64,000 nucleotides of DNA from an uncultured Candidatus Pelagibacter sp. (GTDB lineage: Bacteria; Pseudomonadota; Alphaproteobacteria; Pelagibacterales; Pelagibacteraceae). The first letter of the stretch is position 1, and each line of letters begins with the position of its first letter. The stretch is taken from positions 80,239 through 144,238 of the forward strand of contig CAJWDL010000001.1 in assembly GCA_913030805.1 (NCBI GenBank), written 5' to 3'. The notes below the pieces were generated by a model. It was not told the origin of the DNA, made no database searches, and saw only the letters and a list, made by a program, of their open reading frames with translations. Below are positions 26,689 through 30,936 of this stretch, piece after piece. Both the position numbers and the translations under genes were made by a program.

Positions 26689-28005
26689 ATGTCAGAATCT
26701 TTTGATTTAATTGTTAAAAATGGGTTATGCTTTATTGAAGGAAATTTAAAAAAAGTTGATATTGGTATAAAGGACTCATTAATTAGAGAAATTAAAGAAT
26801 TATCAGCATTTAAAACAAGTCAAGTTGTTGATGCAAAAAATTTATTGGTATTACCTGGCGCCATAGATACCCAGGTCCATTTTAGAGAACCGGGCGCAAC
26901 TGATTCAGAAGATTTATATTCTGGAAGTCGTGCTGCAATTATGGGTGGCATAACATCTATATTTGAGATGCCAAATACTAATCCATCAACCTCTAGTAAA
27001 AAGGAATTTTTAAAAAAAATTAATTTGGCAAACAACAGAATGTTTTGCAATTATGCTTTTTATTTTGGTGCAACTCCTAATAATTTCAAAGAATTAAGAG
27101 AGTTAGATAATTTAGAAGGATGTTGTGGGGTCAAATTATTTGTTGGTTCATCAACTGGCGATTTGTTAGTAAAAAATGAATTAGATATTGAAAAAGTTTT
27201 TTCTAGCAGTTCAAAAATAATATCTGTTCATTCTGAGGATGAAGAGATATTAAATTTAAGAAAACGATTAATAGAAAAAGGAAAAGTATTATCCCACACA
27301 ATTTGGAGAAATGAAGAATGTGCCATTTCCTCTACAAGGAGAATTATAAGAATAGCAGAACGACTGAACAAAAAAGCACATATATTACATGTATCTACAA
27401 AAGAAGAAATTGATTTTTTATCAAAGCATAAAGGAAACATTACATTCGAAATTACCCCTCAACATTTAAGTTTAACTTCTCCAAGCTGTTATGAAAAATT
27501 AGGAACTCTAGCACAAATGAATCCTCCTATTCGAACAAAGGAACACCAAGATAAACTTTGGTATGCAATAAAACATAACATAGCAGATATTATTGGATCA
27601 GATCATGCTCCGCACTTGAGAAAAAATAAAAAAAAACAATATCCAGAGTCTCCATCCGGAATGCCAGGGGTACAAACTTTAGTTCCAATTATGCTAGATC
27701 ATGTAAATAGAAAAAAATTAACAATTGAGCAATTTGTACGACTCGTAAGTGAAAATCCAGCTAAAATATTCAACATTAAAAAAAAAGGATTTATAATAAA
27801 AGGTTATGAAGCAGATCTAACTATTGTTGATATGAATAAAGTTGTAAAAATTGATAACGACAAAATAAAGAGCAAATGTAAATGGTCACCTTTTCATGGC
27901 GTCGAAGTTAAAGGATTTCCTGTAATTACAATTGTTAATGGCGAAATTAAAATGAAAAACGGCAAGATAACGGGTAAACCAGAAGGAAAACCGCTAAAAT
28001 TTTAA
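26689..28005 (+). CDS. pyrC: Dihydroorotase
   Basis: GAIDTQVHFREPG, HILHVSTKEE, IGSDHAPHLR, SGMPGVQTLVPIML. Confidence 0.92.
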   Translation: MSESFDLIVKNGLCFIEGNLKKVDIGIKDSLIREIKELSAFKTSQVVDAKNLLVLPGAIDTQVHFREPGATDSEDLYSGSRAAIMGGITSIFEMPNTNPSTSSKKEFLKKINLANNRMFCNYAFYFGATPNNFKELRELDNLEGCCGVKLFVGSSTGDLLVKNELDIEKVFSSSSKIISVHSEDEEILNLRKRLIEKGKVLSHTIWRNEECAISSTRRIIRIAERLNKKAHILHVSTKEEIDFLSKHKGNITFEITPQHLSLTSPSCYEKLGTLAQMNPPIRTKEHQDKLWYAIKHNIADIIGSDHAPHLRKNKKKQYPESPSGMPGVQTLVPIMLDHVNRKKLTIEQFVRLVSENPAKIFNIKKKGFIIKGYEADLTIVDMNKVVKIDNDKIKSKCKWSPFHGVEVKGFPVITIVNGEIKMKNGKITGKPEGKPLKF

Positions 28006-28099: not shown

Positions 28100-28855
28100 A
28101 TGAGTAAAGTCAAAATAATTGTAATAGCATTGGTGGCATTGATTGGAATATCAAGTAACGCTTATTCAAAGGTAGCTTTGCTTCAGCCCGATGATTTTGT
28201 TGGATTTACTTTTTGGCTTGTGTCAATAGCTTGCCTAGCAACTACGGCGTTTTTTTTTCTAGAACATAGTTCAGTTACTCGGGCTTGGAAAGCTCCAATT
28301 GCTGTTGCAGGCATAGTTACCGGCATTGCTTTCATACACTCCATGTATGTGGGCAACATATGGGTTGCAACTGGCGACTCTCCAATAATTTATAGATACG
28401 TTGACTGGTTAATTACCATGCCACTGCTAACTATACAATTTTACCTAGTGCTATCTGTAGTTAAAAAAGTTTCACCAATATTATTTTGGAAGTTTTTGAT
28501 TGCCCCATTAGTAATGGTACTTGGTTGCTATGCTGGCGAAGCCGGATATATTTCGTCTTTCCTAGGTTTTGTTATATGGATGGTGGGATGGATATATATT
28601 TTATACGAAATATTTCCAGGGGAGGCCGGAAGACTTTGTGCTAAATCCACTAATGGAGAACTAGTTACAGCATTTGGAAAAATGAGAATGATTGTAGTAA
28701 TTGGTTGGACAATATATCCTTTGGGGTATGTTTTTGGATATTTAACCGGTGGTATAGATTCCAACACATTAAATGTTATTTATAACTTTGCGGATTTCAT
28801 TAACAAAATTGCTTTTGCTTTGGTTATTTGGGTTGCTGCTCGTAACCAATATTAA
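28100..28855 (+). CDS. Proteorhodopsin (retinal-binding; D-T-Q motif, L at tuning position 105, GPR numbering)
   Basis: Signal peptide, 7 TM, RYVDWLITMPLLTIQFYLVL (helix C), ADFINKIAF (Schiff-base Lys, helix G), conserved His in IAFIHSMY. Confidence 0.96.
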   Translation: MSKVKIIVIALVALIGISSNAYSKVALLQPDDFVGFTFWLVSIACLATTAFFFLEHSSVTRAWKAPIAVAGIVTGIAFIHSMYVGNIWVATGDSPIIYRYVDWLITMPLLTIQFYLVLSVVKKVSPILFWKFLIAPLVMVLGCYAGEAGYISSFLGFVIWMVGWIYILYEIFPGEAGRLCAKSTNGELVTAFGKMRMIVVIGWTIYPLGYVFGYLTGGIDSNTLNVIYNFADFINKIAFALVIWVAARNQY

Positions 28856-28952: not shown

Positions 28953-29273
28953 ATGGCAAAAATAACTTATATTGAGCACACAAACAAAAAACACATTGTC
29001 GAAGTACCTAGTAACATGAGTGTTATGGAAGGAGCAATACAGAATAATATTCCCGGTATTGATGCAGACTGCGGTGGATCAATGGCATGTGCTACATGTC
29101 ATGTTTATGTCGATAAAAAATGGTTTGATAAACTTAAGAAAAAGAACGAAGGTGAGGAAGATATGTTGGATATGGTCTGTCAACCAAATAAATTTAGTCG
29201 ATTAAGTTGTCAGTTGATAGTTTCTAATGAACTTGATGGGTTAATTTTAAGAATGCCATCAAAACAAGGTTAA
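28953..29273 (+). CDS. 2Fe-2S ferredoxin
   Basis: DADCGGSMACATCHVYV...SRLSCQL cysteine pattern. Confidence 0.94.
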   Translation: MAKITYIEHTNKKHIVEVPSNMSVMEGAIQNNIPGIDADCGGSMACATCHVYVDKKWFDKLKKKNEGEEDMLDMVCQPNKFSRLSCQLIVSNELDGLILRMPSKQG

Positions 29274-29277
29274 TTAA

Positions 29278-30297
29278 ATGATTTCAACGGATGTTCTAAT
29301 TGTTGGCGCAGGACCTGCTGCTTTGTTTACTGTACAACAATTAGGTTTATTAGGTTTAAAAGCTGAAGTTGTCGATAACCTAGATAAGGTGGGAGGTCAG
29401 TGTAGTGAACTTTATCCTGATAAACCAATATATGACATTCCTGCAATTCCAGAATGTACGGGAGAAACTCTAATTAAAAATTTAATGAAGCAAATAGAAC
29501 CTTTTAATACTAATTTTCATTTAAATGAAAGAGTAGATCAATTAGTAAAGGAGGGAACTAAATGGAAAATTACTACAAATAGAAAAAAGGTATTCATCAC
29601 ACCCAGTGTAATTATAGCCGGCGGAGTTGGTTCTTTTGAGCCCAGAAAATTTCCTTTAAAAGAAGCTGAAAAATTTGAGGATAGTGGTGTTTTTTATTCA
29701 ATCAGAGATAAAAAATATTTTGATAATAAAAAAATTTGTATTTTTGGTGGAGGGGACTCGGCGCTTGATTGGTCAATAGAATTATCCAAAAATTCTAAAG
29801 TTGTTTTAGTACATAGAAGATCAGAGTTTAGGGGGACATCCAAAAATGTTGAAACTATTAAAAGGTTTGAAAAAGATGGAAAAATTCAAATTAAAACACC
29901 TTATCAAATAAATTCTATTGAAGGAGATGATAAAATTACATCTATTACAATAAAGGACGATGAAGGAAAAATAAAAAAGATTGATACAGATTATATTCTT
30001 GGTTTTTTTGGTTTGGTTATGAAATTAGGGCCAATAGCAGAATGGGGACTAAATTTAGACAAAAAACATATAACTGTTAGTACAGAAAACTTTCAAACCG
30101 ATAAGGAAGGAATATTTGCTATCGGGGATATTTGTACCTATCCAGGTAAAATTAAATTAATTTTATCAAGTTTTCATGAGGGTGCATTGGCGGCTAGAGG
30201 ATGTTTTGAATTAGCTAGGCCTAACGAAAAATATAGACATGAATTCACAACAACGTCTAAAATCATCCATGAGAGATTAGGTAAAAAAAAATCATAG
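29278..30297 (+). CDS. Thioredoxin-reductase-like ferredoxin-NADP reductase
   Basis: VLIVGAGPAALFTVQQLGLLG, VGGQCSELYPDKPIYDIPA, IFGGGDSALDW; no CxxC redox motif seen. Confidence 0.88.
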   Translation: MISTDVLIVGAGPAALFTVQQLGLLGLKAEVVDNLDKVGGQCSELYPDKPIYDIPAIPECTGETLIKNLMKQIEPFNTNFHLNERVDQLVKEGTKWKITTNRKKVFITPSVIIAGGVGSFEPRKFPLKEAEKFEDSGVFYSIRDKKYFDNKKICIFGGGDSALDWSIELSKNSKVVLVHRRSEFRGTSKNVETIKRFEKDGKIQIKTPYQINSIEGDDKITSITIKDDEGKIKKIDTDYILGFFGLVMKLGPIAEWGLNLDKKHITVSTENFQTDKEGIFAIGDICTYPGKIKLILSSFHEGALAARGCFELARPNEKYRHEFTTTSKIIHERLGKKKS

Positions 30298-30303
30298 AGC
30301 TGT

Positions 30304-30936
30304 ATGATAGAATTATTTTATTCGCCGACACCGAATGGAAGAAAAGTGTCTATCATGTTAGAGGAAACTAAGATCAACTATAAAATAACACATATTGATT
30401 TAAGTAAAGATGAACAATTTAAACCTGAATTTCTTAAACTTAATCCCTACGGAAAAATTCCAGTAATAATTGATCATGAAAAAAATTTAGTTCTTATAGA
30501 GTCAGGTGCTATACTTATTTATTTAGCCAAAAAAAGTAAACAGTTCCTTCCTCAGGAAAATGAAACCAAAATCTTTGAATGGCTAATGTTTCAAATGGGC
30601 AATGTTGGGCCAATGCTTGGTCAGCATCATCATTTTCATCATTTTAATCCTGAAAAAAGTAAATATGCCGAAGATCGATTTTTTAAGAATTCTGTTCGAG
30701 TCTATGAAGTTTTAGATAGAGCTTTGAGTAAAAATAATTATTTAGCTGGTGAAGATTATTCAATAGCCGATATAGCAACTTTTCCCTGGATCGCTAGGCA
30801 CGAATGGCATGACATTGGTTTAAAAAAATATAAACATTTAAGCAGATGGTATAAATCTATTTCTAATAGGTGGGCTGTAAAAAAAGGATACGATTGTTTA
30901 AATACCGGAGAAAAAATACCTAAGATAAAATTATAA
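30304..30936 (+). CDS. Glutathione S-transferase family protein
   Basis: LFYSPTPNGRKVSIMLEE, LNPYGKIPVI, ESGAILIYLA, SIADIATFPW. Confidence 0.92.
   Translation: MIELFYSPTPNGRKVSIMLEETKINYKITHIDLSKDEQFKPEFLKLNPYGKIPVIIDHEKNLVLIESGAILIYLAKKSKQFLPQENETKIFEWLMFQMGNVGPMLGQHHHFHHFNPEKSKYAEDRFFKNSVRVYEVLDRALSKNNYLAGEDYSIADIATFPWIARHEWHDIGLKKYKHLSRWYKSISNRWAVKKGYDCLNTGEKIPKIKL

Follow-up and report, generated by a model that had tools for sequence, protein, structure and literature searches.

It is puzzling that SAR11 bacteria retain rhodopsin genes below the reach of light, and a Pelagibacteraceae genus represented in the window bears on this. By the window we mean the whole 64,000-nucleotide stretch of contig CAJWDL010000001.1 that was analysed here. 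Its proteorhodopsin (PR) has Gln at the cytoplasmic proton donor position, with no Glu, Asp or Lys at residue 108, unlike the canonical DTE, DTD and DTK proton-pumping PRs. The gene, its diagnostic codons and its neighbours are located as follows.

26689..28005, plus strand: amidohydrolase (dihydroorotase-like, pyrC), the upstream neighbour
28100..28855, plus strand: PR gene with a DTQ-L motif, 251 amino acids, ATG start, Pfam Bac_rhodopsin at 126 bits
28100..28180, plus strand: likely signal peptide, an N-terminal hydrophobic stretch of amino acids 1-27 suggested by hydropathy
28340..28342, plus strand: Ser81 codon, matching Tyr76 of green PR (GPR), a position held by Tyr in 40/40 of the family's remaining PRs in the comparison
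28403..28405, plus strand: Asp102 codon, matching GPR Asp97, the Schiff-base counterion, by alignment to GPR
28415..28417, plus strand: Thr106 codon, matching GPR Thr101 by alignment
28427..28429, plus strand: Leu110 codon, matching GPR Leu105, the green-type tuning residue, by alignment (PMC5864233)
28436..28438, plus strand: Gln113 codon CAA, matching Glu108 of GPR by alignment, where the cytoplasmic proton donor sits
28805..28807, plus strand: Lys236 codon, matching GPR Lys231, the retinal attachment site, by alignment
28953..29273, plus strand: 2Fe-2S ferredoxin, a conserved downstream neighbour
29278..30297, plus strand: pyridine nucleotide-disulphide (thioredoxin-reductase-like) oxidoreductase, a conserved neighbour
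30304..30936, plus strand: glutathione S-transferase (GST)-like protein

The alignment used a GPR reference sequence whose landmark residues were checked. In GPR numbering, the window PR has H75, R94, D97, W98, T101, L105, Q108, E142, D227 and K231. The original prediction, made from the DNA alone, was correct on every residue it named: Asp97 and Thr101 are kept, Glu108 has become Gln (CAA), and the call of a green type from Leu105 is sound. Two substitutions were seen in the window protein alone, namely Gly in place of the otherwise invariant Arg80 (window 28352-28354) and Cys at Gly138 (window 28526-28528).

We then considered how widely Gln108 is distributed. The MAG ERR598987_bin.61 (L034) encodes a PR 84% identical to that of the window, with an identical helix C including Gln108. 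Gln108 also occurs in G004 (matching AG-464-P07; PR 72% identical) and in G003 (PR 61% identical), with different flanking codons in both. Glu108 is present in G002 (L035; matching SCGC AAA288-G21), whose PR is 82-83% identical. Across the family, a DNA pattern for Gln108 picked out 5 of 396 genomes (three from the window's genus and one each from g13, where the motif is DTQ-Q, and g6), while a pattern for Glu108 matched 226 of 296. A further g6 genome, G022, has Gln108 in sequence that the DNA pattern missed. Searches of viral contigs returned no relative, and a search of NCBIfam returned no family.

On the tree, the PRs of the genus form a clade of five rows with 100/100 support inside the Pelagibacteraceae PRs, and the window PR falls within the SAR11 PR clade. 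Position 108 requires a minimum of three changes. Because the Glu108 copy is nested among Gln copies within the genus, Gln either arose twice or reverted once. Independent tree pairs relating Q108 to loss of blh numbered just three, too few for significance.

Close relatives keep the order dihydroorotase-like gene, PR, ferredoxin, reductase and GST, and the PR-ferredoxin-reductase order of the window recurs in g13, g14 and g4. This conserved order implies that the window gene is an orthologous SAR11 PR rather than an acquired sensor or ion pump. It is the vertically inherited SAR11 PR of a probably deep-water (subclade Ic-like) Pelagibacteraceae genus, the habitat being suggested by kinship with SCGC AAA288-G21, a single-cell genome of subclade Ic obtained at 770 m depth. 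The GST-like gene (window 30304-30936) is also diverged, with 65-73% identity among close relatives.

The original prediction overlooked further losses along the proton path, relaxed constraint and the lack of recognisable genes for retinal synthesis. Tyr76 is lost in 5/5 PRs of the genus (Y76S or Y76L), Arg94 is replaced by Lys in two and Asp97 by Glu in one, whereas each of these residues is invariant among the family's 40 remaining PRs. The equivalent Tyr and Arg have been described as conserved throughout PRs, and in a solved PR they belong to the proton release wire (PMC12002130). One PR of the same genus (L005; G003:C2:56750-57490) combines Lys94, Glu97 and Gln108 ('ETQ') on a long branch and in the same operon.

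To quantify constraint, we calculated dN/dS by a plain Nei-Gojobori count and compared PR with the adjacent reductase gene. The ratio of dN in PR to dN in the reductase ranged from 1.28 to 3.34 (median 2.33) in 10 within-genus pairs, which share branches and are not independent, as against 0.38 to 0.98 (median 0.64) in 32 other family pairs, with no overlap between the two ranges. The pair of AAA288-G21, which has Glu108, and AG-464-P07 also stands at 2.4, so the relaxation is not tied to Gln108 in both partners. Within the genus, PR dN/dS was 0.19-0.36, so purifying selection continues to act on the gene. The faster evolution of the PR protein could alternatively reflect a new function.

Retinal supply points to a further departure from the family. 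No blh was found in any of the five genus genomes (0/5), compared with 242/296 in the family. In the same five genomes, crtB (phytoene synthase) had no match and crtI (phytoene desaturase) had none over the family cut-off, and no RPE65-type oxygenase was found in genomes of the genus. Since these genomes are 63-83% complete, gene absence is not certain; the chance of all five missing one gene is ~0.0015, taken as the product of their missing fractions and assuming independent gaps. As crt genes tend to cluster, the absences of blh, crtB and crtI count as a single observation and not as three. The lack of blh in G030 was not used as evidence, as its contig stops directly behind crtB, and in G009 blh is the gene that comes next. 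It has been reported that blh declines with depth (PMC5864233) and that retinal is produced by one strain in which none of the known genes for it is present (PMC7734400). Retinal uptake or an unrecognised synthesis route may possibly serve this genus.

We consider it somewhat probable, judging from sequence comparisons, that the protein is a retained slow and weak proton pump under relaxed constraint, with a degraded proton path and scavenged retinal. If retinal is acquired from outside the cell, light would cause deprotonation of the Schiff base to Asp97 as usual. With no internal donor, the Schiff base would be reprotonated slowly from cytoplasmic water, giving a slow photocycle and weak net outward pumping. 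Selection for fast pumping would have relaxed without vanishing, as the dN/dS of 0.19-0.36 suggests. The window PR keeps membership of the Bac_rhodopsin family, the retinal-binding Lys231, the counterion Asp97, Asp227 and His75. When Glu108 of GPR is mutated to Gln, M decays slowly and the protein pumps negligibly in E. coli (PMC8387761).

The opsin may instead be photochemically silent in the cell, either as an apoprotein with a structural or redox-linked role or as a gene on its way to loss. We regard this as unlikely but worth keeping in view. It would account for the relaxed constraint and for the lack of a recognised blh, crtB or crtI in the genus, and it agrees with E. coli observations in which most deep rhodopsins assayed, other than one SAR11 protein, showed no pumping and no visible retinal binding (PMC5864233). 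The tuning residue Leu105 would also be mismatched to the blue light of deep water. However, every copy has an intact frame and keeps the Lys that binds retinal, an acidic residue (Asp or Glu) at 97 and Asp227, dN/dS is well under 1, and streamlined genomes tend to shed useless genes.

A bolder proposal, which we find doubtful, is that the genus gave up both fast pumping and retinal synthesis while the opsin was kept in its operon, changing stepwise (Y76S, E108Q, R94K, D97E) for another job. That job might be as a slow light switch or in a retinal-independent role tied to the ferredoxin and reductase.

It seems improbable that the slow photocycle has been turned to light sensing or photochromic switching. 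Sensory rhodopsins use a long-lived M, which would fit, and Q108 arose more than once given the changes at this site on the tree. Yet no transducer gene adjoins the window PR, whose neighbours (dihydroorotase-like, ferredoxin, reductase and GST) are those of ordinary SAR11 PRs, and PR evolution is faster rather than slower.

The original prediction had listed a slow pump, a sensor or compensation by another donor. The list was sensible, although its last item found no support. Titratable residues gained in members of the genus or with DTQ comprise Cys at GPR positions 40 and 174 as well as charged ones at 181, 187 and 188, each predicted by homology to sit within or close to a loop or the end of a helix. 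With residues placed by homology in GPR numbering, none of these falls in the cytoplasmic half-channel, where the DTQ members share no newly gained titratable residue. A fully efficient pump using another residue as proton donor is therefore very unlikely, position 108 itself being a neutral Gln. Precedents nevertheless exist: a natural DTQ-Q protein pumps (PMC5864233), Lys serves as donor in ESR and in GPR-E108K (PMC8387761), and DTG and DTS rhodopsins pump without a carboxylate at the donor site (PMC10154332), so some pumping by the window PR is conceivable. Lastly, although CAA and GAA differ by one base, a sequencing or assembly error hiding a true GAA codon can be set aside almost entirely, because the independent genomes L034, G003 and G004 carry Gln at the same site, the latter two with different flanking codons.

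Other rhodopsins were encountered in related genomes. L064 (G022:C49:3607-4269) is a DTQ-L rhodopsin whose branch is very long, at 1.2 changes per site, and which still adjoins a ferredoxin and a reductase; its genome is 96% complete, belongs to another genus and is without blh, crtB or crtI. A second rhodopsin type with a DTT-T motif and Ala142 (L006, L007 and L067, in G001, G003 and G027) is strongly conserved across genomes, and the dN/dS of ~0.06 between L006 and L007 implies that it is evidently under firm selection. DTT-T proteins have been reported to lack visible retinal binding in E. coli. More distant second rhodopsins, 27-29% identical, occur in other SAR11 genera (G024:C1:303285-303989, G010:C4:86491-87174, G059:C10:35225-35911 and G015:C23:5040-5723).

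How does the window PR compare with known systems? GPR is ~44% identical and shares the key residues except at 76 and 108, where the wild type has Tyr and Glu; its E108Q mutant imitates the donor site of the window PR. The NDQ sodium pumps and NTQ chloride pumps have Gln at the donor position, as originally pointed out, but kinship with them is contradicted by Asp97 in place of Asn97, by their position in other clades and by the SAR11 PR clade and operon of the window gene. The DTT-T rhodopsins of deep SAR11, one of them a second gene in G003, likewise have no carboxylate donor, but are ~40% identical to the window PR, form a separate clade, have T105 and A142, and lie outside the PR operon.

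The published deep DTQ PRs share D97, T101 and Q108 with the window PR, and DTQ-L is its exact motif and tuning class. Transcripts of DTQ-Q and DTQ-L were reported in 2018 from North Pacific deep water, especially 500-1000 m (PMC5864233), so the motif was already known, contrary to the novelty first implied. The pump tested there was a SAR11 DTQ-Q protein from 770 m that acidified E. coli suspensions in light (PMC5864233), a response later called weak (PMC12598773). The original prediction had named a common, characterised clade of fast DTQ pumps as grounds against it, and this applies in part, one member being known to pump. The likeness of the window PR to the published DTQ-L variants is one of motif. 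The nearest DTQ-Q protein that we found, in G016 (L038), is 59-60% identical to the window PR, and the published pump (Q105) is likely nearer to G016. We came across no account of proton-path residues being lost step by step inside a single genus. The PR of SCGC AAA288-G21 resembles the window PR in its operon, L105, S76 and the lack of a detected blh, but keeps E108 (DTE) where the window PR has Q108. The genus thereby offers a natural series, from DTE through DTQ and K94-DTQ to K94-ETQ in one operon, in which the effect of each loss on photocycle and retinal binding is directly measurable.
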